Notes under the pieces: generated by a model
The model's database searches: none
Seen by the model: the letters and a program-made list of their open reading frames with translations, nothing else
What the model was told of the DNA's origin: nothing
Translations under genes and position numbers: made by a program
Shown: positions 7,174-29,065 of the stretch, one piece after another
Position numbering within the stretch: position 1 is the stretch's first letter
How the letters are laid out: every line of letters begins with the position of its first letter
From: Geobacillus stearothermophilus ATCC 12980
GTDB lineage: Bacteria > Bacillota > Bacilli > Bacillales > Anoxybacillaceae
Length of the DNA stretch: 64,000 nt
Assembly (NCBI RefSeq): GCF_030369615.1
Contig: NZ_CP128494.1
Coordinates: 282,001 to 346,000, forward strand
Direction: 5' to 3'

Positions 7174-7309
7174 CTCCTTTTCCCCTCTATTTTACAAAAA
7201 ACGCGCGCCGATGGCGAGAAAAAATAGGAAAACGGTTTTTGCTAGAAAAAGAGCGGAGAAAATCGTTACAATAAACAGTAGGAAAAAACCGAAGCGAAGG
7301 TGGACGGAG

Positions 7310-8800: not shown

Positions 8801-8802
8801 GG

Positions 8803-9999: not shown

Positions 10000-12900
10000 T
10001 TTTTGGTATTACGACGAGCAGTATTTTCATTTCGCTGACGGCAAGCTGCTGTTGCGGGGAAGCAACGGGGCGGGCAAGTCGGTGACGATGCAAAGCTTGA
10101 TCCCGGTGCTTTTAGACGGCAAGAAGACGCCCGATCGCCTCGATCCGTTCGGCTCACGGGCGCGGCGCATGGAAGACTACTTGCTTGGGGAAAAAGACGT
10201 CGTCAATCGCGATGAGCGGACGGGGTATTTGTTTTTGGAATACAAACGAAAAGCATCCGACCAATACGTCACAACGGGCATCGGCCTGCGGGCAAAGCGG
10301 CAAAAAAGCCTCGACTTTTGGGGGTTTGTCATGTTCGACAACCGCCGCATCGGCTATGACCTTCAGTTGTATAAACAAGAAAAAACAGGTGAAAAAATCC
10401 CGCTGACGAAACGCGAGCTCGCCGCATTGCTCGGTGCGGGCGGGACGGTCGTCGAGACGCAAAAAGAGTATATGGAGCTCGTCAATAAGCATGTGTTTCG
10501 CTTTGAATCGCTCGAGGCGTTTCAAGAATTGATCGAACTGCTCATTCAACTGCGCAGCCCGAAGCTGTCGAAAGACTTTAAGCCGACGGTGATTTATGAG
10601 ATTTTGGAAAGCTCGCTGCCTCCGTTGACCGATGACGAGCTCCGCCATTTATCCGAAACGATTGAAAACATGGACCAAGCCAAGCAGCAGCTTGAGCAGC
10701 TCGAACGCGACGAACGGGCGTTGAAGCGCCTTTGCGATCAATACCGCCTGTACAACGAATATATGATCGCCGAAAAGGCGGCAGAATACGTAAAAGCGGT
10801 CAAGCAGGCCGAACAGCTCGCCGCCGAGCAACAACGCCTTCACGATGAAGAAGAAAAGACGCGAAAGGCGCTTGATGAGCTTGAGGAGTCCATCACCCGC
10901 CTCGGCCGCGAAGAAGACGTGCTGCGAGCGCGCGAAATCGACTTGGCTGGCCATGAAGTGTTCCAGCAGGCGGAAAAGTATGAACAGCTGAAAGCCGAAC
11001 GGCAGCGCCTAGAGGAACGGCGGGAGCGGCACGAGCAGACGATTGCGGAAAAAGAACGACAGGAACGTCAGCACCGCCGCCGCCTCGATGAAGCGGAAGC
11101 GCGGCTGGATGACCTTGAGCGGAAGCTTGAAGACGAGCTGGAGCAGCTGCGTATGGATGCCGACGAAGGATCCTTTTCCTTGCATGAAACGAACGAAGAC
11201 GATTTTCACCGCCATCGCCAAAAGCAACAAGAGTTTTCGTTTGCCGCGTGGAAACAGGAAGCCGACCGCCATATCGAGCAGCTCGAGGAGTTGGCGCGTC
11301 TTTGGCGCAGGCATGACGAGGTGAAACGACGCTATGAAGAAGCGAGCAGCGAAGCGGGCGAAAGGCGGCGGGAAATGGACGAATGGCGCCACCAGCAATG
11401 GAAATGGGAAGAGCTGTTCGAAGAGGAGAAAGAGCGGTTTGAACAAGCCGTGCTTGCCTGGGTCGAGCAGGGAGGAATCGACGTTTCCGAAACGGACATT
11501 CAGGCGTTTTTGCAACAAATGGGCGCCCTCTATGAACAGTATTCGCTCGATGATTTGAAGCGCCCATTCGTGCAAGCGTATTACGATGCCGTCGGCAAGA
11601 AAAAGGATGAGAAATGGCGGCTCGAGCATGACATCCGTCTGTTGGAAGAAAAACGGGCAGAGCGCGAGGCCGAACTGCGTCAATGGCGGGAACAACGCGA
11701 CCCCGAGCCTGAACGGGATGAACAAACCACTGCCGCCCGGTTGGCGTTGGAGGAGAAAGGCATTCCGTTTGTCCCGCTTTATGCCGCGGTCGAATTTGTC
11801 GACGATGTGCCTGACGATGTGCGCGAGCGAATCGAATCGGCGCTTTCACACGCGGGGCTGCTTGACGCCCTCATTACTGCTCGCGAGATCGACGTCGCCT
11901 GCGACCGTGTGCTCATTCCGAAACCGGTCCATATGGCGCACACGCTTGCTGATTATTTGCGCCCAGATGCCAATGCCCCTGTGTCAATGGAGCGGATTGA
12001 CGAAGTGCTCCGAAGCATCGTCATCACCGATGCCGACCAAGAAGGCGGCATGACGATCGATGAAACGGGGCGCTATTCGCTCGGCCTTGTCCGCGGCCAT
12101 GCGCCGCGGAGATCGAAGGCGATGTTCATTGGCCGTGCGGCGCGCGAACGGTGGCGGCTTGAGAACATCGCAGCGCTGGAAGCCGAGATCGCCGCTGTGG
12201 GGCAAGAGATCGACCGTCTGCGCGGGGCGCATCAGGCGGTGGAAGCGGCCATCCAAGCGCTCGCCGACTGGTTGGCGTCCTTCCCATCGGACCGCGATGT
12301 GCGCACCGCGTTTGACGAAGCGCAAGAAGCGCGCCGCCAAGCCGAAAGCAAAGAACGGGAATGGAAGCGGCAAGAAGAAAAAGCCGCTCTCTTGGCGCGC
12401 GAATGGAAACAAATCAAACAACAGCTCCACGACGAGTCGGCCGAGCTCGATTTGGCCTTTACTTTAGACGGTTGTGAACAAGCCCAGCTCGCCATGAAAT
12501 CGTACGTCCGCCATGTGCACGAACTCGAAGTGCTTTACCGCGAAACGTGCCATACCGAGGCGATGATCGCCCAACAGCGCGAGCGGCTCGCGGCGCTGGA
12601 AACGGAGATCGACGAAGCGAAAGGCGAACGAAATCGGCTTCGGGATGAAACCGAGCGGCTCGCCTTGCGAATCGCGGAGATGGAACGGACGCTCGCGCAA
12701 ATGGGGGCGGATGACATTCGCGCCGAAATCGCCCGCATTCAAGAACGATTGGCGTTTTTGCGCCAAGAAATTCCGCGCCTTGTCAACGAACGGGCGCGGA
12801 CGGAACAGCGGCTCATGCGCTTAGTCGAAGAGCGGGAAAAAGGGGCGCAGCGGGAAGCGTTCGCCCGCGAGCTCGCCGCGATGTGGGAAAAGTCGTTTGC

Positions 12901-14080
12901 CCGTGAAGCGGCGCTTGGGCTTGTGGATCTTGATCGTTCCCGATCCCTCCTGGAGCAGGCGAAAGAAGCGAAACAACGGTACGAAGCAGTGTTAAAAGAG
13001 ACGCGTTCCTCGCTTCTGGCGCGGCTGAACACCGTCTTTTTCCAAGAGTCGTCCAACTTGACCGAATACCGGGCGTCCTTCGAGCCGCTGGAAGAACAAA
13101 CGAAGCCTGAATGGACCGCCGCTGCCCCAGACGATGAGATGGCCATGAAAGCCGCGGACTGGCGGGAGAAACAAGAACGGCACGTCATTTACCTCGACTA
13201 CAAAGGCGAGCGCGCCACGCCGTTTGCGGTGCTGGCGGAAGTGGAGCGCGACATCGTCTTGCAGCACGAGTATATGAAAGAACAAGACCGCGAGCTGTAT
13301 GAGGACGTCATCTTAAAATCAGTCGGCCGCATTTTGCGCAGCCGCATCCAGCGCGCCGAACGGTGGGTGAATGAGATGAACAAGCTGATGGGCGGCCTCG
13401 ACACATCATCAGGGCTTGTGCTGTCCATTCAATGGAAGCCAAAAACGGCGGAGACGGAAGCGGAGCTCGATACGAAAGAATTGGTGCGCCTGTTGCGGCT
13501 TGATCCGCGGCTGCTTAGAGAGGAAGATTTACAGCGAGTGACGAACCATTTCCGCTCGAAAATCGCCCGCGCCCGCGAATTGCTTGAAGAGCGCGGCCAA
13601 GGCAGCACGCTCCATCAAATCATTAAAGAAGTGCTCGACTATCGGAAATGGTTTTCCTTCACTTTGTACTATGAAAAAACAAACGAGCCGAAACGCGAGC
13701 TGACGAACCACCGCTTTTACCAATTCAGCGGTGGGGAAAAGGCGATGGCGATGTACATTCCCCTTTTCGCCGCGGCGTATTCGCGCTACCAAGAAGCGGG
13801 CGATGATGCCCCGTACATCATTTCGCTCGACGAGGCGTTCGCCGGCGTCGATGAAAACAACATCCGCAACCTGTTCGGACTTGTCGAACAGCTCGGCTTT
13901 AACTACATCATGAACTCGCAGGCGCTTTGGGGCGACTACGACACCGTGCCCGCGTTGTCCATTTGCGAACTCGTCCGCCCGCGCAATGCGTCGTTTGTGA
14001 CCGTCATTCATTACCGTTGGAACGGGCGCGTCAAACAGCTCATGGTCGATGACAAAGAATGGGAGATGATCGAAACGTGA
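9959..14080 (+). CDS. jetC: Wadjet type II SMC-like ATPase JetC (TIGR02680 family)
   Basis: This 1373-residue motor subunit has an SMC/Rad50 architecture: N-terminal Walker A GSNGAGKS (residues 34-41), a long charged coiled coil broken by a hinge-like region near residues 590-740, and a C-terminal head with signature FSGGEKA (about residue 1256) and Walker B IISLDEAFAG (about 1287). JetC dimers with JetA and JetB extrude DNA loops using ATP and present small circles for cleavage. ATG 9959 follows AGGGAGGAG; the longer frame from 9929 has no such site. Length, motifs and neighbours agree with type II Wadjet, and both head motifs are intact. Confidence 0.92.
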   Translation: MANPWVLHRAGLINFWYYDEQYFHFADGKLLLRGSNGAGKSVTMQSLIPVLLDGKKTPDRLDPFGSRARRMEDYLLGEKDVVNRDERTGYLFLEYKRKASDQYVTTGIGLRAKRQKSLDFWGFVMFDNRRIGYDLQLYKQEKTGEKIPLTKRELAALLGAGGTVVETQKEYMELVNKHVFRFESLEAFQELIELLIQLRSPKLSKDFKPTVIYEILESSLPPLTDDELRHLSETIENMDQAKQQLEQLERDERALKRLCDQYRLYNEYMIAEKAAEYVKAVKQAEQLAAEQQRLHDEEEKTRKALDELEESITRLGREEDVLRAREIDLAGHEVFQQAEKYEQLKAERQRLEERRERHEQTIAEKERQERQHRRRLDEAEARLDDLERKLEDELEQLRMDADEGSFSLHETNEDDFHRHRQKQQEFSFAAWKQEADRHIEQLEELARLWRRHDEVKRRYEEASSEAGERRREMDEWRHQQWKWEELFEEEKERFEQAVLAWVEQGGIDVSETDIQAFLQQMGALYEQYSLDDLKRPFVQAYYDAVGKKKDEKWRLEHDIRLLEEKRAEREAELRQWREQRDPEPERDEQTTAARLALEEKGIPFVPLYAAVEFVDDVPDDVRERIESALSHAGLLDALITAREIDVACDRVLIPKPVHMAHTLADYLRPDANAPVSMERIDEVLRSIVITDADQEGGMTIDETGRYSLGLVRGHAPRRSKAMFIGRAARERWRLENIAALEAEIAAVGQEIDRLRGAHQAVEAAIQALADWLASFPSDRDVRTAFDEAQEARRQAESKEREWKRQEEKAALLAREWKQIKQQLHDESAELDLAFTLDGCEQAQLAMKSYVRHVHELEVLYRETCHTEAMIAQQRERLAALETEIDEAKGERNRLRDETERLALRIAEMERTLAQMGADDIRAEIARIQERLAFLRQEIPRLVNERARTEQRLMRLVEEREKGAQREAFARELAAMWEKSFAREAALGLVDLDRSRSLLEQAKEAKQRYEAVLKETRSSLLARLNTVFFQESSNLTEYRASFEPLEEQTKPEWTAAAPDDEMAMKAADWREKQERHVIYLDYKGERATPFAVLAEVERDIVLQHEYMKEQDRELYEDVILKSVGRILRSRIQRAERWVNEMNKLMGGLDTSSGLVLSIQWKPKTAETEAELDTKELVRLLRLDPRLLREEDLQRVTNHFRSKIARARELLEERGQGSTLHQIIKEVLDYRKWFSFTLYYEKTNEPKRELTNHRFYQFSGGEKAMAMYIPLFAAAYSRYQEAGDDAPYIISLDEAFAGVDENNIRNLFGLVEQLGFNYIMNSQALWGDYDTVPALSICELVRPRNASFVTVIHYRWNGRVKQLMVDDKEWEMIET

Positions 14081-15297
14081 GCACGGCCAAGGAGGCGGCT
14101 GCCTTTTTCCGATCCGAACCGGGCTTCAAGCGGCTGTTTGCCGAAATGAAACGCAAGTACGAGTCGCTCGGCCGCGTCGGCGGCGCGGTGTCTTTAGAGG
14201 TGTTCACCGATGAAGAGCGGGAGGCGGTGGCCGCCTTTTTCGGCAAAGACGTCTCCCGCGTCTCCCTTATCGCGTTTGAAAAACAGCTCGGACAGACGAG
14301 GTTTGCGGGCGTTGGGCTTGTCGAGCTGCTTGAACAGTACTTCGGCGCCCCGCTTGTCTCAAACAAAGAACGGCGCCAGGCGGAGGAAGAGGAACGGGAT
14401 CGTTTTTTTGCGCGTCTGACCGAGGAGCATCATTGGGTTGAGTCGGTCCGCCCTCAGCGCTTCGTCCAAACGGCGTACGAAACCGACCGCCGCAGCCTGG
14501 AGGAGGCCATCCGCCTTGTCAGCGCGGCTTTGGGCCGCCTCCCGCTCCCGTCATACATGCGCCTCCCGCTCTTTGCCCAGCAAGTGGCGGGCGACCCGCA
14601 TGCGTTCGATTTGTCCACGCTACCGGGGAGATTGTTGCTTTCGGCGTTGCAAGCGACCGTGCCCGGGGATTGGGACATGGCATCTGTAGAGAGCGTCAAC
14701 GAGTTGCTCCAGTCCGTCGGCTTGCTCCGTGAGGATATCCTGAACTTTGTCACATGCGCCAACATTCTTGCTGAAACCAAGGACGGACCGCATCCTGTTT
14801 TCTCCGCTGCCTGGGAGGCGAACACAGCGCTGAACATGCCGCTTAGAGATGTGCTGTCGCTTGTCCGCGCCCGCCCTGCCCATGGGGGGACGGTGTACAT
14901 TGTCGAAAACGCGGGCGTCTTTTCGACGCTGCTTGACACCCGCGCCCCGCTTGTCAGCACGAACGGGCAAATGAACGTGGCGACGATGAAGCTGCTCGAT
15001 CTTCTCGCCTCTTCAGGCGCCAAGCTGTATTACTCCGGCGACTTCGACCCAGAAGGATTGGCCATGGCAGAGCGGCTGCAGGAGCGGTATGGACAGGCCG
15101 TCACCCTTTGGCGCTTTTCCGTCGAGGATTATAGGGCCGCCAACCCTGTCGTCGACCTCACCCCCGAGCGCCTCGCCAAGCTCGCATCCGTAACGTCGAC
15201 GCCGCTGCAGCCGCTGAAAGAGGAGATGGCGGAAACGAAAAAAGCGGGGTATCAAGAGGCAATTATCGGGAGGCTGACAGAGGATATCAACGGGTAG
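14077..15297 (+). CDS. jetD: Wadjet type II nuclease subunit JetD (TIGR02679 family)
   Basis: The 406-residue protein is the JetD subunit, related to topoisomerase VI / Spo11-like Toprim proteins, which cleaves DNA held by the JetABC motor. The Toprim-like acidic motif is seen in YSGDFDPEGLA near residue 320, after a conserved VYIVENAGVFS segment. GTG 14077 overlaps the jetC stop (GTGA) and has GGGAG upstream; an in-frame ATG at 14059 is an alternative. A strong hairpin follows the stop. With all four subunits intact the operon is probably active against plasmids. Confidence 0.88.
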   Translation: MSTAKEAAAFFRSEPGFKRLFAEMKRKYESLGRVGGAVSLEVFTDEEREAVAAFFGKDVSRVSLIAFEKQLGQTRFAGVGLVELLEQYFGAPLVSNKERRQAEEEERDRFFARLTEEHHWVESVRPQRFVQTAYETDRRSLEEAIRLVSAALGRLPLPSYMRLPLFAQQVAGDPHAFDLSTLPGRLLLSALQATVPGDWDMASVESVNELLQSVGLLREDILNFVTCANILAETKDGPHPVFSAAWEANTALNMPLRDVLSLVRARPAHGGTVYIVENAGVFSTLLDTRAPLVSTNGQMNVATMKLLDLLASSGAKLYYSGDFDPEGLAMAERLQERYGQAVTLWRFSVEDYRAANPVVDLTPERLAKLASVTSTPLQPLKEEMAETKKAGYQEAIIGRLTEDING

Positions 15298-15820: not shown

Positions 15821-15856
15821 GTCATAGTTCCCCTGAGATTATCGCTGTGGTATAAT
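15821..15856 (+). CRISPR. orphan type II-C CRISPR repeat
   Basis: These 36 bases are identical to the repeats of the main array at 22550-23572 and have the same orientation. No second repeat is adjacent: 3 bp downstream an IS630 element begins, and upstream only 13 bp separate it from the palindromic unit. It was split from the main array by transposition, as described in the findings. Confidence 0.97.
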
Positions 15857-15883
15857 CTATATACATGCAACATGAAGAGTTAA

Positions 15884-17251
15884 CTGTAGATGAGCATTTT
15901 TCATTACAATAATTTCCATGGTTAGAGAGACAAACAGTGTACCCCTTACGCGATACGGAGCTGTTTTTTGATCACATCAATGGGAATATCTTGCTTTGCA
16001 GCGTCATAAATGAACTCGACGACGCTGTGGTCTTTCCGCGACCGAAGAAGCTCCAGCCCGGTGGAGAGGTTTTGTCGGGATTCGGCGATGCTGTACACGC
16101 AGGAGAGCAGCACCACCGCCCAATACCGTTTCACCGCCCGAACGTGGTGAACGCGGTATCCATCCAGCTTCAGTTGATCTTTCGCCTGCCGGAAAAAGCA
16201 TTCGATCGTCCAGCGCTGGGCGTAGTAACGCAAGATGTCTTCGTCCCCGAGCTCCCGGTCGGTGCTCAAGACGCAATGGAGATGTTCCGGTGTCATCGGC
16301 TGATCCGCCTTCCAAGCCAGCAGCACCACCGCGTCATCGAGGCCATGGATGGCCCCCTCATAGCGATACACGCGGTAATGCTCCTGACCCACCGTGACGA
16401 GGCGGGTGTCTTGGGGCTCGATATAGCGGGCGAACTGCTTGGCTTGGACGGCGATGCCTTTCGGATAAAGAATCCGGTTCGCCTTGAGCATCGCGATGAC
16501 ATGGAATCCCTGTTTCAGACAGGCTTCGATGAGCTTTTTGGACGGATACCACGAATCCATGAGCACATACACCGGCTGAGCCCGCTTCACCTTGAGCGAG
16601 GAAAGCATCTCGATCGCCAGGTCGATCTTGCTTTTTCCCGCTTTCTTGTCATACAGGCGGAACGCAAATGGGAACGCCTGCGTGAAGGTGTGCACCATCA
16701 GCCAAACGAGCGAATGCCCCCAGACCGATTGATGATCTTTATGCGAGTAGTGCCAGTCGCACCCTTGAATGGCGTGCACAGCCCGTGACGAAGGCTTCGT
16801 TTTTTGGCAAATCGTATCATCAATCGAAACAAAAAGGGGTTGATTCTTCCGTTTGGCCAGTCGTTCGACCTGGGAAAGGATCCACTCTTGAAGCTTCCCA
16901 AGCAGCCTTTCCTCGTTCCAAGGGCTTTTCGTGAAAAAGTGACGGAGCGTCGTTCGATGATTCGGATGAAAGCTCCAGTAATGAATATCAGTCAATGTTC
17001 CCGAGAATCCCTTGGTGGTCAAGGCATCGACAATATGAATGAGATGCTTGATGACCGGTTTGGAAAGCTGCAGCGTCAACCCCAGCGTGAAGAAAAACTT
17101 GTGGATTCCTTGGTGATGTGCTAATCTATTCATGAGACATGAACCTCCTTGTGGATAGTTGGTGGTACATCTATTCTAACCAAGGAATCCGGTTCATGTC
17201 TCCTTTTTTGTTTAGTTGTCAATTTATGTCAGTGAATTTGCTCATCTACAG
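15884..17251 (-). mobile_element. DDE-type IS nested in IS630 copy 1
   Basis: The 1368-bp element begins CTGTAGATGAGCA and ends with the inverse TGCTCATCTACAG. GAGTTAA is present on both sides (15877-15883 and 17252-17258) but only once in the uninterrupted IS630 copy 2, so it is a 7-bp target duplication. It encodes one intact transposase. Confidence 0.9.
15946..17133 (-). CDS. DDE transposase (IS4/IS701-like)
   Basis: The intact 395-residue transposase has a first catalytic Asp probably in FVSIDDTICQK, a second in VYVLMDSWYPS, and a C-terminal YAQRWTIECFFRQAKDQL segment supplying the Glu (Y-x2-R-W-x2-E type). These are features of the IS4 superfamily; SIDDT is also typical of IS701-like proteins. 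The exact family is uncertain because the 7-bp duplication is not diagnostic. AAGGAGG precedes ATG 17133. The gene fills the element. Confidence 0.85.
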   Translation of the reverse strand: MNRLAHHQGIHKFFFTLGLTLQLSKPVIKHLIHIVDALTTKGFSGTLTDIHYWSFHPNHRTTLRHFFTKSPWNEERLLGKLQEWILSQVERLAKRKNQPLFVSIDDTICQKTKPSSRAVHAIQGCDWHYSHKDHQSVWGHSLVWLMVHTFTQAFPFAFRLYDKKAGKSKIDLAIEMLSSLKVKRAQPVYVLMDSWYPSKKLIEACLKQGFHVIAMLKANRILYPKGIAVQAKQFARYIEPQDTRLVTVGQEHYRVYRYEGAIHGLDDAVVLLAWKADQPMTPEHLHCVLSTDRELGDEDILRYYAQRWTIECFFRQAKDQLKLDGYRVHHVRAVKRYWAVVLLSCVYSIAESRQNLSTGLELLRSRKDHSVVEFIYDAAKQDIPIDVIKKQLRIA

Positions 17252-17266
17252 GAGTTAACTTCTCAG

Positions 17267-17806
17267 TCATCCTGCACACCCTAAACGCTGCAGCACTTCC
17301 TCCGGACGTTCGTGGATGTAGTTGACAAACCGAGTAATGGCTTGAATGATATCGTTGCGATCCTTGTGAAATACATTGGCAATCACCGTATCTTTCAGCC
17401 ATTTCCATAAGCGTTCGATCGGGTTCAGCTGTGGCGAATAGGGAGGAAGGTAAATAAAGTGAAAACACTGCCCTTCTTCCCGCAAAAACTCCTTGACCAT
17501 TTTGGCATGGTGAATGCGGGCGTTATCCAACACCAAAACCATGAGACGGTCTAAATAGCGCTCTTTGAGCATTCTCAAGAAATCCAAGAACGTCGCGGCA
17601 TTAGCAGCGGTCGTTTGATGAAGCACCGTTTCACCATCATGGACGTTGACCGCGCCAAACCGCGATACGTGGGCATGATGGCCAAACGTCGGCACTTGTT
17701 TTTGGCGGCCGACTTCCGACCATGTGGACCGCAAGACATGGTAAGAGCGGATATGGGTTTCATCGATGTACAGAAGAACAGCATCTTCTGTCTCCTTGGT
17801 GATCAA
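17267..17806 (-). CDS. IS630 transposase, DDE frame (copy 1)
   Basis: The 179-residue catalytic half has Asp in LYIDETH, Asp in LVLDNARIHH and Glu in NPIERLWKWLK, the complete IS630 DDE triad. It differs from copy 2 by a single visible residue (LDRLM versus LDCLM). Expression needs one-base slippage from the upstream frame at a ten-A run. Confidence 0.85.
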   Translation of the reverse strand: MITKETEDAVLLYIDETHIRSYHVLRSTWSEVGRQKQVPTFGHHAHVSRFGAVNVHDGETVLHQTTAANAATFLDFLRMLKERYLDRLMVLVLDNARIHHAKMVKEFLREEGQCFHFIYLPPYSPQLNPIERLWKWLKDTVIANVFHKDRNDIIQAITRFVNYIHERPEEVLQRLGCAG

Positions 17807-18335
17807 GTTTTTTTTTTATCAGATCCATTTGTTTTTCAAATTGTTTTTGCTCATCCAGATTTCCTTTCGCCAGTGTGTACGTCGGTCGTGTCCACGACAG
17901 CCCTTTGCGGTGCAGGAGTTTTCGCAGCGCTTCGCGGGAAATGGAAACACCGAATTGCTTTGCGACATAGGATTGCAGGAGTTTGGTGTTCCACGCCGAA
18001 GCAACGTCCCAGCCCAGTTCCGCGGGAGTAGTGGTCAACACAAGGTGTTTGATCTCTTCCTGCTGTTCTTCGGTGAGAAACGGCTCCCGCCCGGGGGCGA
18101 AATCCCGATGAAGCAAGAGCTCCAGACCGCCTTCGTTGAACAGCGACACATAATGGGAAACGGTTTGTCGGCACACGTTGACCATGGAAGCCGCCTCTTT
18201 GCCCAAATAGCCTTCCATGACCAGGCGAACCGCCATCACCCGTTGGCGAAGAAGGGTGTTTTTGATTTTCCGTTCCTGTTTGCGAAGTGTCCGAGGTGTC
18301 CATCCGTGATCGTTGGTGATTTTGAGACGTTTCAT
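17760..18335 (-). CDS. IS630 transposase, DNA-binding frame (copy 1)
   Basis: The 191-residue N-terminal half has a helix-turn-helix (GYLGKEAASMVNVCRQT) and a second winged-helix segment. The frame reads into a run of ten A residues after MDLI; removal of one A in the transcript would continue into the DDE frame as KKNLITKE. GGAGC lies upstream of ATG 18335. Confidence 0.85.
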   Translation of the reverse strand: MKRLKITNDHGWTPRTLRKQERKIKNTLLRQRVMAVRLVMEGYLGKEAASMVNVCRQTVSHYVSLFNEGGLELLLHRDFAPGREPFLTEEQQEEIKHLVLTTTPAELGWDVASAWNTKLLQSYVAKQFGVSISREALRKLLHRKGLSWTRPTYTLAKGNLDEQKQFEKQMDLIKKKLDHQGDRRCCSSVHR

Positions 18336-18593
18336 GCAGAATTCTGCTCCTTTTCCATTCTTTTCCTTAGGAGCAGTATAACCGGAGTGGGAACCACTTA
18401 TACGAAGGTTAACTTTTCAATGAGCATATATATAGTTGAGCGTTAAGACTCAACTAGCACCACGGGTTGAATATACTCTTCAAGCTCATTACTCCCCTCT
18501 CTGAAACAGCCTCTGTGGCCATCTCCATCCCCACCTTCCATAAACATACGTTCGTAATCTTCGGTATTAACTATGAAATAAATGTGAACATCA

Positions 18594-18637
18594 TTGACAA
18601 AAGTAATAATCACCTTTAATATACCGTATAGGGTATA
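18594..18637 (+). promoter_or_regulatory. SigA promoter with overlapping CstR/CsoR-type operator
   Basis: TTGACA (18594-18599), a 17-bp spacer and TAATAT (18617-18622) form a strong promoter. Overlapping the -10 is the palindrome TATACCGTATAGGGTATA (18620-18637). This resembles the operator of CstR/CsoR-family repressors, where CstR derepresses sulfide and persulfide genes. The downstream gene encodes a persulfide/CoA-disulfide reductase with a rhodanese domain, a typical CstR target. No cstR gene is in the window. Confidence 0.65.
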
Positions 18638-18738
18638 TTATTAAAGATCATTCAATACGAACAGATAGGATCTTTCATGCTTGCAATAATTAGTCAATAA
18701 ATGCAACTTCGTAATCTATATAATGGAGGGGAATCTTC

Positions 18739-20427
18739 ATGCGAAAAATTGTAATTGTCGGCGGTGTAGCAGGGGGAGCCACCGCAGCGGCCCGATTGCG
18801 CCGGTTAAGCGAAAAATACCAAATTATTATGTTTGAGAGAGGCGAATACATTTCGTTTGCTAACTGCGGCCTGCCGTATTATATCGGCGAAGTCATTACG
18901 GATAGAAACAAACTATTAGTCCAAACGGTTGAAGGAATGGCGAAGCGTTTTCGTATTGATGTTCGCAATTTAAGCGAAGTCACAGCGATTCATCGTGACC
19001 GTAAAACTGTTACAGTAAAAAATATCCGCACTGGCGAGGAATACGAAGAAACATACGATACATTAATTTTGTCACCTGGCGCAAAGCCGATGATACCGCC
19101 AATTCCTGGAATTCATGAAGCCAACGCGTTATTTACGCTTCGTAATCTATCTGATACAGATAAAATAAAAGCGTACGTTGATCACGAAAAACCAAAGAGC
19201 GCCGTAGTCATTGGCGGAGGGTTTATCGGTGTCGAGATGGCAGAAAACTTAGTCAAGCGCGGAGTGAACGTAACGCTTGTGGAAATGGCAAATCAAGTGT
19301 TGGCACCGATTGACTACGAGATGGCATCGATTGTTCACGCGCATATGCGTGAAAATGGCGTAAATTTGATTTTGGAAGATGGCGTGAAAGCTTTCGAAGA
19401 CAACGGCCGACGTATTGTTCTAAATAGCGGCCGCACGCTTGAAACCGATATGATTATTTTGGCCATCGGGGTACAGCCAGAAAGTCAATTAGCGAAAAAT
19501 GCCGGACTTGAACTTGGGGTGCGCGGCACTATCAAAGTCAATGAATATTTGCAAACATCCGATCCGAACATTTACGCCATCGGCGACGCTATCGAAGTAA
19601 AAAACTACATTCATGGTTTTGAGACATTTGTCCCTCTTGCATGGCCGGCGAACCGCCAAGGCCGCTTGGTAGCGGATCATATTCATGGGCTCGATGTGAA
19701 ATACAATGGCACATTAGGAACTGCGATCGTGAAAATTTTCGAATTAACCGTCGCAGCAACAGGAAATAATGAAAAAACCTTGAAACAACTCGGCATCCCA
19801 TATGAAGTTGTCCATGTTCATCCAATGAACCATGCGGGCTATTATCCAAATGCAACACAAATGACATTGAAACTGATTTTTGACAAAGAAACAGGCAAAA
19901 TTTATGGTGCGCAAGCCGTTGGAAAAGACGGCGTCGACAAACGTATCGACGTCATCGCAACCGCTATTAAAGGCGGCTTAACGGTTCGTGATTTACCGGA
20001 TTTAGAGCTTGCCTACGCACCGCCGTTTTCTTCCGCGAAAGATCCAGTGAATATGGCCGGTTACGTTGCTTCGAACATTCTCGATGGAATGGTGGAAACC
20101 GTACAATGGCATGAAATTGATGAAATCATCGCAAACGGAGGCACGCTCATTGACGTTCGTACACCAAAAGAAGTCGCACGTGGAACGATTCCTGGTGCTA
20201 TCAATATTCCGCTTGATGAACTGCGCGAACGTTTAGCGGAACTTCCGAAAGACAAAACCATTTACGTAACATGTCAAGTCGGCTTGCGTGGATATTTAGC
20301 AACACGAATTTTGCACGACAACGGTTTCCGCGCGAAAAATTTAGATGGCGGCTATAAATTGTATTCCTCCGTATTTGGTGCAAAACACCAAGTTCAAAAT
20401 ATGCCGCCGAAATTCGTAGAAAAATAA
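18739..20427 (+). CDS. cdr: CoA-disulfide / persulfide reductase with rhodanese domain
   Basis: This 562-residue flavoprotein joins a CoA-disulfide reductase module to a C-terminal rhodanese domain. The FAD site GGVAGG is at residues 8-13, the redox cysteine at residue 43 (SFANCGLPYY), a second nucleotide-binding GGGFIG near 160, and the rhodanese loop CQVGLRG near 512. Such CoADR-RHD enzymes use NAD(P)H to reduce CoA persulfide, polysulfide or CoA disulfide in sulfide metabolism and redox defence. GGAGGGG precedes ATG 18739. Codon use is more AT-rich than in surrounding Geobacillus genes, and the gene lies between two IS630 copies, which suggests acquisition from another thermophilic bacillus. 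Confidence 0.9.
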   Translation: MRKIVIVGGVAGGATAAARLRRLSEKYQIIMFERGEYISFANCGLPYYIGEVITDRNKLLVQTVEGMAKRFRIDVRNLSEVTAIHRDRKTVTVKNIRTGEEYEETYDTLILSPGAKPMIPPIPGIHEANALFTLRNLSDTDKIKAYVDHEKPKSAVVIGGGFIGVEMAENLVKRGVNVTLVEMANQVLAPIDYEMASIVHAHMRENGVNLILEDGVKAFEDNGRRIVLNSGRTLETDMIILAIGVQPESQLAKNAGLELGVRGTIKVNEYLQTSDPNIYAIGDAIEVKNYIHGFETFVPLAWPANRQGRLVADHIHGLDVKYNGTLGTAIVKIFELTVAATGNNEKTLKQLGIPYEVVHVHPMNHAGYYPNATQMTLKLIFDKETGKIYGAQAVGKDGVDKRIDVIATAIKGGLTVRDLPDLELAYAPPFSSAKDPVNMAGYVASNILDGMVETVQWHEIDEIIANGGTLIDVRTPKEVARGTIPGAINIPLDELRERLAELPKDKTIYVTCQVGLRGYLATRILHDNGFRAKNLDGGYKLYSSVFGAKHQVQNMPPKFVEK

Positions 20428-20433
20428 TGAACC

Positions 20434-20472
20434 ACTCCCACCTTCATTCCATGAAAAGGTGGGAGTTTCTTA
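20434..20472 (+). terminator. terminator of the CoADR-rhodanese gene
   Basis: ACTCCCACCTT (20434-20444) pairs with AAGGTGGGAGT (20456-20466), followed by TTCTTATT. It lies 6 bp after the stop. Confidence 0.85.
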
Positions 20473-20542
20473 TTATCTCCAGCAAAGAAGTTTTGGCATA
20501 GAAAAATTCTTGTATAGAACACATATTTGTTTTTATACAAAA

Positions 20543-20625
20543 AAACCGCTGATCATCTTGCCCTTCCCTTTCGTTTAGAGAAAGGAGGCTTTTCGGGAAA
20601 AAAGGGAAACGATCAGTAGTTTTTG
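20543..20625 (-). terminator. hairpin region between convergent cdr and ybaK genes
   Basis: A-rich sequence with CTGATC and a matching GATCAG followed by a T-run bracket imperfect internal stems (around CCCTTTCG and GAAAGG). It lies between two convergent genes and would terminate ybaK on the minus strand. Confidence 0.4.
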
Positions 20626-20629
20626 GCGT

Positions 20630-21106
20630 TTATTTTACCACTTCATGAAACGTAGCTTCTGTTATGCTTTGTAAATCTTCCACGCTTAGTTCAATTAACA
20701 AACCAATTTTGCCGCCGCTAACGATGATATGCTCAAATTGACAAGCACTGGAATCGATAAAGGTCGGATAATGTTTTATCATCCCTATCGGTGAACACCC
20801 TCCACGAATATAGCCAGTCAATTTTTCGATATCTTTCATCGGCGCCAATGCGACATTTTTCTCTCCCGTTATTTGCGCAGCTTTTTTCAAATCGAGTTCC
20901 GATTCTACAGGGATGACAAACACATAAACGTTTCCGCTTTTCCCCTGTGTTACTAATGTTTTATATACCAATTGAGGGTCTTTCCCAATTTTTTGAGCAA
21001 CCGATATGCCGTCAATTCTCCCATCCTGACTGTCGTAGGTAAAGACATTGTAAGGAATCATTTTTTTATCAAGAACACGCATCGCGTTGGTTTTTTCTGT
21101 CGCCAT
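20630..21106 (-). CDS. ybaK: Cys-tRNA(Pro)/Cys-tRNA(Cys) deacylase YbaK/EbsC
   Basis: The 158-residue YbaK-domain protein hydrolyses Cys mischarged on tRNA(Pro), a trans-editing role in translation accuracy. The conserved Lys and the surrounding KTLVTQGKSG strand and the GYIRGGCSPIG loop typical of the family are seen. Full length for the family. AGGG precedes ATG 21106. Like the reductase gene it faces, it is cargo between the two IS630 elements; its AT-rich codon use also differs from the flanks. Confidence 0.9.
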   Translation of the reverse strand: MATEKTNAMRVLDKKMIPYNVFTYDSQDGRIDGISVAQKIGKDPQLVYKTLVTQGKSGNVYVFVIPVESELDLKKAAQITGEKNVALAPMKDIEKLTGYIRGGCSPIGMIKHYPTFIDSSACQFEHIIVSGGKIGLLIELSVEDLQSITEATFHEVVK

Positions 21107-21354
21107 TTTTCTTCCCTCCAGTTCGTTTCAACAGTAAATGCTGGATAATCAACACACATGGGAACAAATATGTTTTTTAAACATAATCATCAAAAACAAG
21201 TGTTGTATTCCCCTGCAATTATTCTAACTGCCTTGATTTTATTCCTATCGGCGCAAAAAACAACAATCTAGTCACGCCTGAATAGAATGGAAATGTCGAT
21301 CTCATGGTGTTTCCTTTATCTATACACATGCAACATGAAGAGTTAACTTCTCAG

Positions 21355-21894
21355 TCATCCTGCACACCCTAAACGCTGCAGCACTTCCTCCGGACGTTCG
21401 TGGATGTAGTTGACAAACCGAGTAATGGCTTGAATGATATCGTTGCGATCCTTGTGAAATACATTGGCAATCACCGTATCTTTCAGCCATTTCCATAAGC
21501 GTTCGATCGGGTTCAGCTGTGGCGAATAGGGAGGAAGGTAAATAAAGTGAAAACACTGCCCTTCTTCCCGCAAAAACTCCTTGACCATTTTGGCATGGTG
21601 AATGCGGGCGTTATCCAACACCAAAACCATGAGACAGTCTAAATAGCGCTCTTTGAGCATTCTCAAGAAATCCAAGAACGTCGCGGCATTGGCAGCGGTC
21701 GTTTGATGAAGCACCGTTTCACCATCATGGACGTTGACCGCGCCAAACCGCGATACGTGGGCATGATGGCCAAACGTCGGCACTTGTTTTTGGCGGCCGA
21801 CTTCCGACCATGTGGACCGCAAGACATGGTAAGAGCGGATATGGGTTTCATCGATGTACAGAAGAACAGCATCTTCTGTCTCCTTGGTGATCAA
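21355..21894 (-). CDS. IS630 transposase, DDE frame (copy 2)
   Basis: The 179-residue catalytic frame has a full DDE set (LYIDETH, LVLDNARIHH, NPIERLWKWLK). It is almost identical to copy 1, so the two insertions or their duplication are recent. It is joined to the upstream frame by slippage on ten A residues at about 21898-21907. Confidence 0.85.
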   Translation of the reverse strand: MITKETEDAVLLYIDETHIRSYHVLRSTWSEVGRQKQVPTFGHHAHVSRFGAVNVHDGETVLHQTTAANAATFLDFLRMLKERYLDCLMVLVLDNARIHHAKMVKEFLREEGQCFHFIYLPPYSPQLNPIERLWKWLKDTVIANVFHKDRNDIIQAITRFVNYIHERPEEVLQRLGCAG

Positions 21895-22423
21895 GTTTTT
21901 TTTTTATCAGATCCATTTGTTTTTCAAATTGTTTTTGCTCATCCAGATTTCCTTTCGCCAGTGTGTACGTCGGTCGTGTCCACGACAGCCCTTTGCGGTG
22001 CAGGAGTTTTCGCAGCGCTTCGCGGGAAATGGAAACACCGAATTGCTTTGCGACATAGGATTGCAGGAGTTTGGTGTTCCACGCCGAAGCAACGTCCCAG
22101 CCCAGTTCCGCGGGAGTAGTGGTCAACACAAGGTGTTTGATCTCTTCCTGCTGTTCTTCGGTGAGAAACGGCTCCCGCCCGGGGGCGAAATCCCGATGAA
22201 GCAAGAGCTCCAGACCGCCTTCGTTGAACAGCGACACATAATGGGAAACGGTTTGTCGGCACACGTTGACCATGGAAGCCGCCTCTTTGCCCAAATAGCC
22301 TTCCATGACCAGGCGAACCGCCATCACCCGTTGGCGAAGAAGGGTGTTTTTGATTTTCCGTTCCTGTTTGCGAAGTGTCCGAGGTGTCCATCCGTGATCA
22401 TTGGTGATTTTGAGACGTTTCAT
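21848..22423 (-). CDS. IS630 transposase, DNA-binding frame (copy 2)
   Basis: The 191-residue N-terminal half is identical to that of copy 1 at the protein level. The helix-turn-helix lies near residues 42-65. The last residues after MDLIKKK come from reading through the A-run in the zero frame and are not part of the functional fusion. Confidence 0.85.
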   Translation of the reverse strand: MKRLKITNDHGWTPRTLRKQERKIKNTLLRQRVMAVRLVMEGYLGKEAASMVNVCRQTVSHYVSLFNEGGLELLLHRDFAPGREPFLTEEQQEEIKHLVLTTTPAELGWDVASAWNTKLLQSYVAKQFGVSISREALRKLLHRKGLSWTRPTYTLAKGNLDEQKQFEKQMDLIKKKLDHQGDRRCCSSVHR

Positions 22424-22549
22424 GCAGAATTCCGCTCCTTTTCCATGCTTTTCCTTAGGAGCAGTATAACCGGAGTGGGAACCACTTATACGAAGGTTAA
22501 CTTTTCAATGAGCATATATATAGAAGCCTTTCTGACGGCCTTTTCACGC

Positions 22550-23572
22550 GTCATAGTTCCCCTGAGATTATCGCTGTGGTATAATTACATGGGCTGAGTA
22601 TTTTTCGAGCATTGCGTCATAGTTCCCCTGAGATTATCGCTGTGGTATAATAAAAAAAGCACGTAACCAATAAGGATAAAGTCATAGTTCCCCTGAGATT
22701 ATCGCTGTGGTATAATATATCCGCCTTGCGCAATATCCTGAAAAACGTCATAGTTCCCCTGAGATTATCGCTGTGGTATAATCCGCGTTGGCTCGCAAAA
22801 TCGCCAACACTGTCATAGTTCCCCTGAGATTATCGCTGTGGTATAATCGCTGGCGGCATTGGAGTTTTTCGAAGATGGTCATAGTTCCCCTGAGATTATC
22901 GCTGTGGTATAATTAACTGACGTACATTTCGCCGCATCGGGCGGTCATAGTTCCCCTGAGATTATCGCTGTGGTATAATACAAGAATTTATTCTTATTCC
23001 GGGCGTTCGGTCATAGTTCCCCTGAGATTATCGCTGTGGTATAATAGAGGAACGATAGTCAAAACCCTTAACACGGTCATAGTTCCCCTGAGATTATCGC
23101 TGTGGTATAATTTCACCGCAAGATGAACGAATATTTAGCAGGTCATAGTTCCCCTGAGATTATCGCTGTGGTATAATCATTCCTTTTCACTGGTGATGCG
23201 GAGGCAAGTCATAGTTCCCCTGAGATTATCGCTGTGGTATAATCGAAGGAATGACGGGTGGAGTTCCCTTCGGTCATAGTTCCCCTGAGATTATCGCTGT
23301 GGTATAATTGGTATGCGGCTCAACATGGCTATGATGCCGTCATAGTTCCCCTGAGATTATCGCTGTGGTATAATCGCACCGATTGAACAACACGCGCTTT
23401 CTCAGTCATAGTTCCCCTGAGATTATCGCTGTGGTATAATTATGACACCTTATTAGGTGCCTGGGTGAAAGTCATAGTTCCCCTGAGATTATCGCTGTGG
23501 TATAATCAACGTAAGGAAGTGGAGCTATATAGAGAGGTCATAGTTCCCCTGAGATTATCGCTGTGGTATAAT
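22550..23572 (+). CRISPR. type II-C CRISPR array, 16 repeats and 15 spacers
   Basis: Sixteen identical 36-bp repeats begin GTCATAGTTCCCC and end GTGGTATAAT. The 15 spacers are 30 bp except three of 29 bp (at 22652, 22783 and 23244). Repeats are complementary to the anti-repeat at 28236-28271. Each ends in TGGTATAAT, a perfect extended -10 promoter, so every spacer can be transcribed from its own start on the plus strand, as described for Neisseria type II-C arrays. The array converges on the cas genes. No repeat is degenerate, so the leader end cannot be deduced from decay. A further repeat of this array is stranded at 15821. Confidence 0.99.
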
Positions 23573-23580
23573 ACGTATCC

Positions 23581-23672: not shown

Positions 23673-23993
23673 TTAAAAAAGCGTCAGCTGGGTGGATGTC
23701 ACTTTCTTTTCTTGCGCCGTTGGTTCCCCGAGAAGCAGCTGCATTTTTGCGTACTGCTTTTCCGTTACGACCATCGCCCGAATCGATCCTCGAGGGGGCA
23801 AGTTGCGTTTTAATCTTGCCAAATGTTTGTCCGTTGCTTCATGTCCGTGGCAGACGCGGCTGTAGACCGAAAATTGCAACATATCGTACCCTTCGTTCAG
23901 CAGGAATGTGCGAAATCGCCGGTATTCGCGCTTCTCCCGGTTGGTCACGACGGGAAGATCGAAAAAGACGAGCAACCGCATAAACTTACTCAT
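23673..23993 (-). CDS. cas2: CRISPR-associated endonuclease Cas2
   Basis: The 106-residue Cas2 (type II form) has the start MRLLVFFDLPV with the conserved Asp in the first beta strand, followed by RRFRTFLLNEGY. Cas2 dimers with Cas1 make the spacer-integration complex. ATG 23993 lies inside the end of cas1 (8-bp overlap), so it is coupled to cas1. Full length. Confidence 0.97.
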   Translation of the reverse strand: MSKFMRLLVFFDLPVVTNREKREYRRFRTFLLNEGYDMLQFSVYSRVCHGHEATDKHLARLKRNLPPRGSIRAMVVTEKQYAKMQLLLGEPTAQEKKVTSTQLTLF

Positions 23994-24885
23994 ACACGTG
24001 CAGTTGCAACGGGAGAAGTTCCGGCAATTTCAACAACGAAGGGTCTTGGCTTCGGCTTGCCGTGACGAAGCTTTTTATCATTTCTTCCACCGCGTTCACG
24101 ACGGTCAGTTTTTCTCCATTCACTAGTATGTCCATGTTGGCTAAATTATATAAGTCTGCCCGAATGGATGGAGAAAATTCATCATCCGGTTGAATATGTT
24201 GAGCCACGTATAGGTCAACGAGCGGACGCAATACTTCCATAAAGTCGTCGGCGAGATTAAATTTGTTCAACTCGTTATCATGGTAAATTCCTAAGCATGG
24301 GAAAAAACCATACCCAACGAGAGAGCGGGCGACGAGTCCCCGCATAATGGCGTATCCGTAATTTAAAGAAGCGTTCACCACGGAGTCGCTTCGTCGGGTA
24401 AATTCACTGCCAAATAAATACTGGAAATACTTTTTGGCTCCATACGCTTCACGGTTATTGCTGTCTCCAGAGTCGACGGTTTTGCTGATGCGGTATAGCT
24501 CGTCGGCCCCTTCTTTGTTCAGGAACTCCAAACACTTTCCTTGATTGATGAGTTTTTGGATCACGACCCGCTGCCAAATTCGCTTTTTAAAAGGCTTGGA
24601 GTAGGCGTACTGCATGTGCAGCACGCCCACTTGGCGGGAATGTTTTTGGAACGGCTGCAGCACCCCATTGGGAAGCCGTTTTTGGTCACAGGTGAATAAT
24701 GCAATGTTATGTTCGGCCATTTTGCTTAAAGCGGCTACTGTCACGCTGACAGCTTGTTCCTCGATGATAATGGAACAAATATCCTCGAGCGGGATCGAAA
24801 CTTTTTCTTCCTGTTCAATCACGAGTTGATTGTAACGGACGGATAGTTTTCCCGGGTTTCGAATGAGCAGATGACGCCAACCCAA
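23986..24885 (-). CDS. cas1: CRISPR-associated integrase Cas1 (type II)
   Basis: The 299-residue type II-C Cas1 integrates new spacers together with Cas2. It begins MGWRHLLIRNPGKLS, as type II Cas1 proteins do, and has the catalytic region around NASLNYGYAIMRG and the metal-binding GIYHDNELNKFNLADDF segment. Its start lies 71 bp inside the cas9 gene in another frame. No csn2 or cas4 gene follows, which defines subtype II-C. Confidence 0.97.
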   Translation of the reverse strand: MGWRHLLIRNPGKLSVRYNQLVIEQEEKVSIPLEDICSIIIEEQAVSVTVAALSKMAEHNIALFTCDQKRLPNGVLQPFQKHSRQVGVLHMQYAYSKPFKKRIWQRVVIQKLINQGKCLEFLNKEGADELYRISKTVDSGDSNNREAYGAKKYFQYLFGSEFTRRSDSVVNASLNYGYAIMRGLVARSLVGYGFFPCLGIYHDNELNKFNLADDFMEVLRPLVDLYVAQHIQPDDEFSPSIRADLYNLANMDILVNGEKLTVVNAVEEMIKSFVTASRSQDPSLLKLPELLPLQLHVYE

Positions 24886-27800
24886 CTCTCTTTTCCCCTC
24901 TCACTTTGTAGATGTTGCCGAGCACATCTACTTGATATTTCTCGAATCGTTTGAGGGTTCTTGAACCGACGCCGCGGAGCGAGAAACGGTGGTCATGGCT
25001 GATCAACTCTAATCCTCCGTTGGCTGAGTCAATCGTTTTGTAGTAGACAAATACATCCTTAACGTTGATCTCTTCGCCTGCGGCTGTTTTCACTGTTTTT
25101 TCCCGCGGAAGCTCAATGCGAATGAGATCATTCGGGTACAGGCTAAATCGGAACGTATAGTCCTCCGTCATTTCCTTCCACTCAGAGTACGGCTTGTTCG
25201 GCTCGATGGCTTTGTTTGGCAAAATCCCTTTCATGATGTCCATGGTGTAGACAGGGACACAATAATATTTCCCATCTTTTTCAAATACGTCAACCCGAAC
25301 GATGTTGCTGTTGTAGGCGACGGTTTTGCCGTCATTGAGCGGGATGACCTGGTTTTTTGTGTCGATGATTTTTACGGTCCGAATGACAGGCCCGGGTTCG
25401 CCGTTCTTTTTCGGCTTGTACAAAGGTTCTTGGAATGCCTTTTTCGGGTCATTGTTATGTTCAAGCAGACGCTGGCGGATCGCTTCGTATGTCCTTGGGT
25501 CGCTTTCTTTGCCGTACATCGGAAAATGCCCGCTCGCATCCAACTTGATTTCGGACAGTTTCGTTTTGACAACAGTTTGGATTTTCCCGCTCCGTTCATC
25601 GATACCGACGTAGCGCCGTAATGTTTCTTGATGAGCCGCCCCTGTAACGCTCCGCTTCGGCATTCGGGATACAAAAACCGGCTGTAGCGATTCGAGTTTC
25701 TGATCATCATAATTTCCAAGATTGAGAGCTTTTATACTCTCTTTTGGATGTTTGGATAAACGCGCCCGCAGTTCGTCGGCGAAGTGCGGCCAAGGCTGCG
25801 GGAAGTGCGGTTCTGTCTTTTTGGCCAGTTCTTTGTTTTGTTCGCGCCGTTGGTAAAAGGCGGTGACTTTGGCGATATCGCTTGGCGTTGTGCAAGCGAC
25901 GATCACGGCATCGACGGCATGATGCAAATCCGATTCTTCACGGTTTTTGTTAAACTCCCAGCGGCTTCGTAAATGGGCGGTAACGCGGCCGTTGACCGTA
26001 TAGACTTTTTGCTTGTCATCACTTTCGGCGAATTTCAGATGTTCGCGAATAAAGTTGGCGAAAAAGCGTGAAATATACCGGGTGTCATTTAAATTTCGAT
26101 TTTTAAATTCTGTTTCTTCATTTTCATCATAATGGAGTCGGAGCAGCCGATCCCGTTTCTTTTTGGAAAACTGCTTGTTCGTTAACACAAACGTTTCAAA
26201 CTGTTGCCAGCGTTCGGTTCCGACGCCTAAATATTCGGCAGGAATGCGGTTGCCTTTTTCGCGGTTTTCTCTTGTCAATACCAACACTTTATTGGTATAA
26301 CTGTCGTCCAAGCTTCGGCTATACGGGATGACGTGATCCACTTCTACATACCCCGGTTCAAGCAGCCGCTCGATTTCGATCGGTTGAAGCGAGTAGGCGC
26401 TCCTCCCATTTTGCTCACTCCAAAGTTTGAACTTGACAATGTCATGGCCGGTTGGGTTTAGCGTCAAGCCATACTCCATGAGTTGGCGGATGGCGGTTTC
26501 GTTTTTCTTCCGGTTTTCGTCTTGTTCTTTTTTTGTTTTCCGCCGTTCGTCAAACGTTTGTGATAAATCGCGGGCCAACTCGATATGAATGGATACCGGC
26601 GAACCGTACTTTTTAATAATAGCATTCACCACTTTCCGCGCCTGTGTCAATGCACGCATGACGACCGGATTGGCGATCGGCGGAATATTTGGTAGCAACA
26701 TTGTTTTTTGTTTCTTCTTTGGCCCTGTAAATGTGTATCCCGCCCGCTCACAAGCCGAAGAGTAGACTTCTCCTTGTTCCATGTACGGGAGAATGCTGCG
26801 AAGCGCCTTTAGCGACAAATGGCCGAATTTGGTGAATGACAAGTTCAATAGTTCCTCAATTAGCTCGTTGTCATATACCTTGTTCGCTAAATTTGGCATC
26901 CGTTTTCCGTTTTGTTCATATTCGTTTCGCAAGTAGCTGTGAATGTCAGCATCATCTTTAAACAATGTCAGGGCGTAACCGAATGTATCAAAATCGATTG
27001 GGAGAAATGAACTTGACTTCTCTTTTCCATACACTTTATCGACGGCTTTCCGAATTTGATGATAGGCGTCGAGTTCAAGGAATCGGATGTTTTCATTTTG
27101 CTTTCGTGATTCGCCTCGATCATACACAATGCCTTTAAAGTAAGTGTCATCAGGCAAATGGAGCAACGTCCGTATATCATGGTAGGTGATTTTGTTTTTT
27201 TGGAATGCCTGTTCATACAAAAGGCGTCGTTCCTCATCGGTGAGCCCTCGTGCGCCTGATGGGGAGATGAGCCGCAATTTATTGATGTGCTCCCAGGCGA
27301 TGAACGATTGGAATGTATAAGTTGCTTTTGGCGCCCGTTTTTCTTTCGGTTCAAAGGCACAAAAGCCGACCTTTTTCTCGATGTCATCTTTGGAAGCGAC
27401 AGGACGCTGGGAAGCCCAAATGGCGATATATTCATTCTCAAACTCTTCCGTGCAACTCATGTTTCCAAACTCACGCTGTTTGGAGAAAATGAGTCGGATC
27501 TCGCGTTCTAAGTCATCGCGGGCGATTGTGTTTGTATAATTTTCTCCTTTATTGCGCTTATGGAGCGCAAACTTTGGATCTTTCACAATCATTTCGCCGA
27601 CGGTCCGGTAGCTTGAGAGAATGGCCCGGTTTTCTTCGATATGTTTGAGCATCGTGCTGTTTTCTTTGTTGCTGCGCTCGCTTTTGCGGTTGGATTTGAA
27701 GCCGCGCCGCTTGGCTAGATGAAGGAGGACGCGAGCCAGCTCGTCGTTGTTTAATTTTCGATCCAATGCCTCAACACGCAGCTGCCAGACGTCGATTTCG

Positions 27801-29035: not shown

Positions 29036-29065
29036 GTTTTTATCGTACCTATGAGGGATTAAAAC
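29036..29065 (+). CRISPR. lone 30-bp repeat of a type I/III-like CRISPR
   Basis: The sequence begins GTTTTTATCGTACCTATGAG and ends GGATTAAAAC. From memory this closely resembles 30-bp repeats of type I-B and type III arrays in thermophilic bacilli, which end ATTGAAAC; the altered end is what a terminal degenerate repeat would show. No second copy lies within several hundred bases and no matching cas gene is present. Confidence 0.65.

Follow-up and report, generated by a model that had tools for sequence, protein, structure and literature searches.

We analysed a window of 64,000 nucleotides (nt) from Geobacillus stearothermophilus ATCC 12980 (NZ_CP128494.1, positions 282,001 to 346,000) in which a clustered regularly interspaced short palindromic repeats (CRISPR) array is separated from one of its own repeats by a block of insertion sequences (ISs) and other genes. 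The array, comprising 16 repeats and 15 spacers, lies on the forward strand at 22550–23572, with cas2, cas1 and cas9 on the reverse strand at 23673–28078. The alignment of the encoded Cas9 to GeoCas9 chain 8jtj_A extends over all 1,087 residues, with two differences in the ~957 residues compared, and cas9, cas1 and cas2 together with a promoter motif in the repeats are features of a type II-C system. A further repeat is stranded at 15821–15856 on the forward strand, at the cas-distal end of the array, and matches each of the 16 array repeats at 36/36 positions, confirming an earlier sequence-only reading of the window. Searching the whole genome with up to three mismatches recovered 17 copies of this repeat, every one of them at this locus and facing the same way; a reversed control pattern gave no genome matches in the same search.

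Reading from the stranded repeat, the order is C, TA, the left end of a first IS630 copy, an IS701-family element, the remainder of copy 1 and the tip of an IS982-family element, followed by a cargo segment, 160 bp, TA, IS630 copy 2, TA, 27 nt and the array. The left end of copy 1, containing its terminal repeat (15860–15883, reverse strand), is severed by the IS701-family element; 29 of the 30 nt at 15856–15885 match copy 2. The IS701-family element (15884–17251, reverse strand, 1,368 bp) has the ends CTGTAGATGAGC and GCTCATCTACAG and a transposase at 15946–17133 with a DDE_Tnp_1 domain. Its plasmid matches are annotated as IS701 or ISBsm1 family, and five further full-length copies are present in this genome at 97–98% identity. 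Its 7-bp duplication, GAGTTAA, is repeated at 17252, in line with the 4–9 bp duplications described for IS701 elements of G. kaustophilus (PMC8024623). The remainder of copy 1 (17252–18432, reverse strand) carries its transposase in two frames (17267–17806 and 17760–18335) with DDE_3 and winged-helix domains, and is followed by the terminal 35 bp of an IS982-family element (18433–18467), an apparent donor-site leftover that begins with the TA adjoining copy 1.

The cargo segment (18468–21160) encodes a coenzyme A (CoA)-disulfide/persulfide reductase with a C-terminal rhodanese domain (18739–20427, forward strand) and a ybaK-type aminoacyl-tRNA editing protein (20630–21106, reverse strand; PF04073, 86.5 bits). 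The next 160 bp (21161–21320) are without a match in the 40 other family genomes and gave only a 52-bp match at 81% identity in one plasmid record (E 9e-4). IS630 copy 2 (21323–22520, reverse strand) again has its transposase in two frames (21355–21894 and 21848–22423). The two same-orientation IS630 copies, reductase gene and ybaK that the sequence-only reading had listed are all present, except that copy 1 is not intact, being split by the IS701-family element. Two copies of one IS630 element enclose genes unrelated to ISs, as in a composite transposon.

The remnants on the two sides of the block add up to one spacer. On the left are C (15857) and a TA target duplication (15858–15859), and on the right copy 2 ends at 22520 and is followed by the second TA (22521–22522) and a 27-nt remnant (22523–22549), all on the forward strand and exactly as the sequence-only reading had placed them. 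Once the insert and one target duplication are removed, joining 15857–15859 to 22523–22549 gives a spacer of 30 nt. This is the commonest length among 73 spacers of six Geobacillus arrays (30 nt in 56, 29 nt in 15, and 28 and 31 nt in one each), a count that leaves out two long gaps, of 6,693 bp at this locus and 597 bp in another genome (G001). The latter gap separates the first and second exact repeat matches of locus L059 (2645–3241), and a partial repeat is visible within it.

The junction also restores the insertion target, TA within CTAG at positions 1–4 of the spacer. The IS630-family element ISY100 is reported to insert almost only at TA, duplicating it (PMC2170065), and CTAG is the commonest target of the IS630 group studied here, being found at 10 of the 17 sites with both flanks readable. 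The left flank is C in 16/19 cases and the right flank G in 17/22, counts that include copy 2 and the right end of copy 1, and in which the right flanks of L012 and L114 are alike. TA also occurs inside the IS630 ends (TATA), so the duplication rests on this comparison of flanks; the CTAG marks a genuine IS630 landing. That one block lies inside one spacer, as first proposed from the sequence, is upheld, and the reconstructed CTAG agrees with the element's own target preference. CTAG is absent from the remaining array (22550–23573) and occurs in only two of the 73 spacers of the six arrays, both in other species. With the reconstructed spacer, the present-day array would hold a single CTAG, which suggests why this spacer was hit.

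The two IS630 copies are closely related, with five differences in 1,183 nt plus one in 30 at the left end, and are sisters with a support of 0.999 in a tree of 21 near full-length copies, these two among them. After this pair, the best copies in this genome reach 95% (full length) and 97% (partial), and its other IS630 copies do not join this pair in the tree. Among the 21 copies, measured from stop to stop, L110 has an open frame of 382 codons and L116 one of 362. The remaining 19 (within loci L009–L015 and L110–L124) have no transposase frame of more than 285 codons, and the lengths of their A/T runs vary, pointing to slippage or decay.

Further evidence for the history of the block comes from its inner flanks. 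A 34-mer of the IS982 tip is found with up to two mismatches in 16 of the 41 family genomes, this one included, and adjoins annotated IS982 genes in plasmid records. An IS605-type end had also been considered for this 34-mer (at 18433); the assignment was dropped because those records annotate the neighbouring gene as IS982. Uninterrupted IS982 copies read C|TAGTTGAG in 11/11 distinct places, preceded by GGGC in ten, ATGC in one and TTTATC in none; the right inner flank, before copy 2, reads TTTATC. The most likely earlier position of copy 1 is a CTAG within an IS982 element beside the cargo, and copy 2 most likely came from another site. Since the inner flanks are unlike those of one site, they point to two separate donor insertions, the arrangement needed for a composite transposon. 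Such flanks could also result from loss of DNA beside one IS, although this would not be expected to leave C and TA.

The cargo looks foreign to this genome. When it was compared with other genomes, a check suggested by the sequence-only reading, its nearest relative was a chromosomal segment of another family genome (G033), with a gapless identity of 99.48% over 2,693 bp (18468–21160); the next best relatives reach 92%. By inference, G033 is Parageobacillus toebii; the 34-mer of the IS982 tip lies at coordinate 38991 both in the second contig of G033 and in plasmid record NZ_CP049704.1. The closest reductase protein cluster is named Parageobacillus (97% identity, 50 members), and clusters named Geobacillus reach 81%, both among the best 120 of 741. 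The best DNA matches in other Geobacillus genomes are at 71–73% and cover the reductase gene only.

In G033 the reductase gene and ybaK have other flanks and the segment is not bounded by IS630; the best match to the IS630 query there has an E value of 8e-34, and the 17 kb surrounding the two genes showed no transposase among reading frames of 110 aa or more. Homology to G033 and to three other relatives stops at the same base, 21160, and two more relatives end 11 and 29 bases earlier. The reductase has 562 aa here and 550 aa in G033, extending 12 residues past the stop of its relative. Its best match of solved structure is 3ICR. No other match in this genome spans the whole protein, the longest covering ~340 and ~360 residues at 28% and 31% identity, and separate rhodanese domains reach 54%. 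For ybaK, this genome has a homologue at 69% DNA identity (C1:1542490).

We consider it probable, if well short of certain, that a composite transposon consisting of IS630, cargo and IS630 transposed as a whole into the spacer farthest from cas in the type II-C (GeoCas9) array. In the donor, an IS982 element adjoining the cargo would have received one IS630 and a different site the other; the cargo, comprising the reductase gene and ybaK, would have been picked up from a Parageobacillus toebii-like chromosome. A unit of ~5.3 kb, not yet containing the IS701-family element, would then have moved into the TA of CTAG at spacer positions 1–4 and duplicated the TA, with the IS701-family element entering the left end of copy 1 later. 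A search for the same composite at a second site found none among the collected plasmids or, with seven candidates scored in each, in the 41 family genomes.

The most serious competitor, to which we give perhaps one part of belief for every three given to the composite transposon, involves two steps. An IS630 would have entered the spacer by itself, and a circle carrying the cargo and one IS630, released when two IS630 copies of the donor recombined, would have recombined into this resident element and duplicated it. Such a history predicts the same inner and outer flanks and fits the near identity of the two copies, but it needs two events and a resident IS630 that was 99.6% identical to that of the cargo, whereas the other IS630 copies of the genome are at most 97% identical and do not group with copies 1 and 2. 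The sequence-only reading had left the choice between a composite transposon and a cargo circle entering a resident IS; of these the composite is favoured, and the inner flanks speak against a circle formed around one original IS630 insertion. The IS982 flank is GGGC or ATGC and never TTTATC, and a deletion beside the IS would have to be invoked to rescue that version.

It is also conceivable, at very long odds, that a single spacer never lay between the stranded repeat and the array, the former having arisen by ectopic acquisition or duplication, or the two remnants having come from two spacers. In accordance with this, the reconstructed 30-mer matched nothing in 397 genomes of the order (one genome per species, up to three mismatches) besides the remnant in the window itself, so that no empty site was recovered. 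Its source was likewise not found: the best phage matches cover 22 nt at 91% (E 2), yielding no protospacer, and the last 20 nt have no exact match in IMG/VR. Because no protospacer was found, the left end of the spacer is without confirmation by source. Against such an origin stand an identical 36-nt repeat in the same orientation and the sum of 1, 2 and 27 to 30 nt; under a simple null of unrelated outer distances, uniform between 0 and 40 nt, sums of 29 or 30 are expected in ~3% of cases. Just as improbable is an assembly artefact, with a single IS630 in the spacer to which a cargo with other IS630 flanks was wrongly joined. In its favour, the IS630 copies are 1.2-kb direct repeats beyond the span of short reads; against it, the genome is in two contigs at 99.95% completeness and has the cargo and IS630 copies nowhere else at this identity.

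Several points weigh against one-unit transposition of a composite into a single spacer. Both transposase genes in the window are split into two frames at a run of ten A, so that movement of the composite may have depended on slippage or on a helper transposase. The preference for C on the left and G on the right also fits two insertions, and CTAG by itself is no proof of a single site; as it would be expected from two separate insertions too, the single-spacer claim rests on the repeat and the length. The 160 bp at 21161–21320 find no place in this account, and there is a slight chance of misassembly between the two IS630 copies. Lastly, neither the intact spacer nor the same composite elsewhere turned up in the searches of the order, the family and the plasmids.

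The position of the interrupted spacer bears on its age. The 100 bp on the cas2-proximal side of the array are 88–99% alike in all 15 pairs of six genomes; a seventh (G009) was left out of these pairs, its cas2-side flank being unlike the rest (50–52%). The cas-distal 100 bp are 38–48% alike in 19 of the 21 pairs of seven genomes, the other two pairs reaching 72% and 100%. The cas-distal end had been considered as the acquisition leader, and this was dropped with the finding that the conserved flank is on the cas2 side. Published type II-C systems acquire spacers at the cas2/3′ end (PMC12638026, PMC6008519), with the qualification that II-C arrays may form groups with different acquisition ends (PMC12638026). 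Because it is the cas2-side flank that is conserved, in six of the seven genomes, and II-C arrays are described as growing there, the spacer that was hit is probably the oldest, and the insertion has probably not stopped acquisition.

The region around the array has other features. A complete Wadjet type II set (JetA, JetB, JetC and JetD, by PADLOC models) occupies 7055–15297, directly upstream of the stranded repeat, and in G002 and G010 the 150 bp before the array resemble, by eye, the end of a jetD gene. At L064 of G010 (repeat at 9806) the locus is down to a single repeat between the upstream and conserved cas2-side flanks, an array emptied of spacers. At L062 of G005, an A-to-C change (GTCATC) recurs in three of 28 repeats, interspersed as the first, fourth and eighth counted from the cas-distal end. 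Beyond cas9, position 29036 of the window holds a single copy, with up to two mismatches, of another Geobacillus CRISPR repeat.

Small RNAs of G. stearothermophilus are reported to show transcription of the array opposite to the cas genes and a 23-nt spacer in each CRISPR RNA (crRNA) (PMC5681539). With a mature guide of 23 nt, the 27-nt remnant still holds a full guide (PMC5681539). The insertion sets this guide apart from the repeat bearing its promoter motif and leaves the other 15 spacers with repeats of their own. That these 15 are spared by a promoter in each repeat, as the sequence-only reading had claimed, is plausible: an extended −10 motif, TGGTATAAT, lies at the end of the repeat, but its best −35 match is 3/6 and a promoter scan made no call at the extended −10. 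As the −35 is weak and the scan silent, the role is assigned by analogy with other II-C systems (PMC12638026). If the repeat promoter holds, one spacer has been silenced and 15 have not, and the interrupted spacer is probably silent through loss of the preceding repeat and its motif.

A promoter swap is a further idea, and a rather improbable one. The right end of IS630 (TTAACT-16-TATAGA) would replace the lost repeat promoter and the 27-nt remnant would yield a working crRNA; equally speculatively, the stranded repeat would now drive RNA antisense to the transposases. Were this true, the spacer would have outlived a transposon landing inside it, its last 23 nt being all that is required. A promoter newly formed at the junction of IS630 and spacer was examined as a candidate and not retained, the best match being 4/6 per hexamer and the scan calling none there. 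The locus offers a natural promoter-removal experiment on one guide of a GeoCas9 array, which bears on whether each crRNA needs the promoter motif of its own repeat. Elsewhere in the array, spacers 3 and 4 have full-length matches to Geobacillus virus E2 and thermophilic phage D6E. The 3′ flanks of these protospacers have CTAA, in E2 at the position of the protospacer-adjacent motif and in D6E displaced from it by one base; this agrees with the natural consensus NNNNCNAA given in PMC5681539 and not with the optimum given there, CRAA.

Mobile DNA has been seen in CRISPR arrays before. In Xanthomonas citri LG097, an IS21-family element lies inside spacer Xcc_18 and splits the array, as here (PMC6889575), but that case is described as a single IS without cargo, with 4 bp of the spacer lost, whereas the present system is type II-C. 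IS6110 likewise splits the CRISPR locus of Mycobacterium tuberculosis, in repeats as well as spacers, and recombination between its copies can remove spacers (PMC7708916); these are single ISs, and the passages on them mention no imported genes, in contrast to the apparently imported cargo in the present block. In Escherichia coli, mobile DNA has disrupted CRISPR2 through an IS in ATCC 8739 and through insertion of a sucrose operon, with loss of CRISPR2, in SMS35 (PMC2886076). The CRISPR type is another one there, whereas here every repeat has a promoter-like motif and the array is kept; the authors of that study suggest that an IS may give promoter signals to distal spacers (PMC2886076). Prophage integration into arrays is reportedly a further case of cargo-bearing mobile DNA in an array. 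Among the matches listed for composite transposons with CRISPR and for array or spacer insertions, none reports by title a cargo-bearing composite transposon in a spacer.

Elements inside spacers and IS630 composites that move to CTAG are therefore already in print, and the event is an accident of a known type and not a new system. Such similar insertions, together with the IS701 insertion and the foreign-looking cargo, lie beyond what the sequence-only reading had covered. Tenzen and Ohtsubo reportedly described in 1991, to go by their title as cited in PMC2170065, an IS630-associated composite transposon that moves to the TA in 5′-CTAG-3′. That element shares with ours the IS630-family ends, the composite structure and the TA in CTAG as target. 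The present block differs in belonging to a Geobacillus IS630 group, in drawing its cargo from what appears to be another genus, and in having a CRISPR spacer as target. Its mechanism would be an ordinary one, and what the locus adds is an apparent cross-genus gene transfer caught with three IS families nested in one another.

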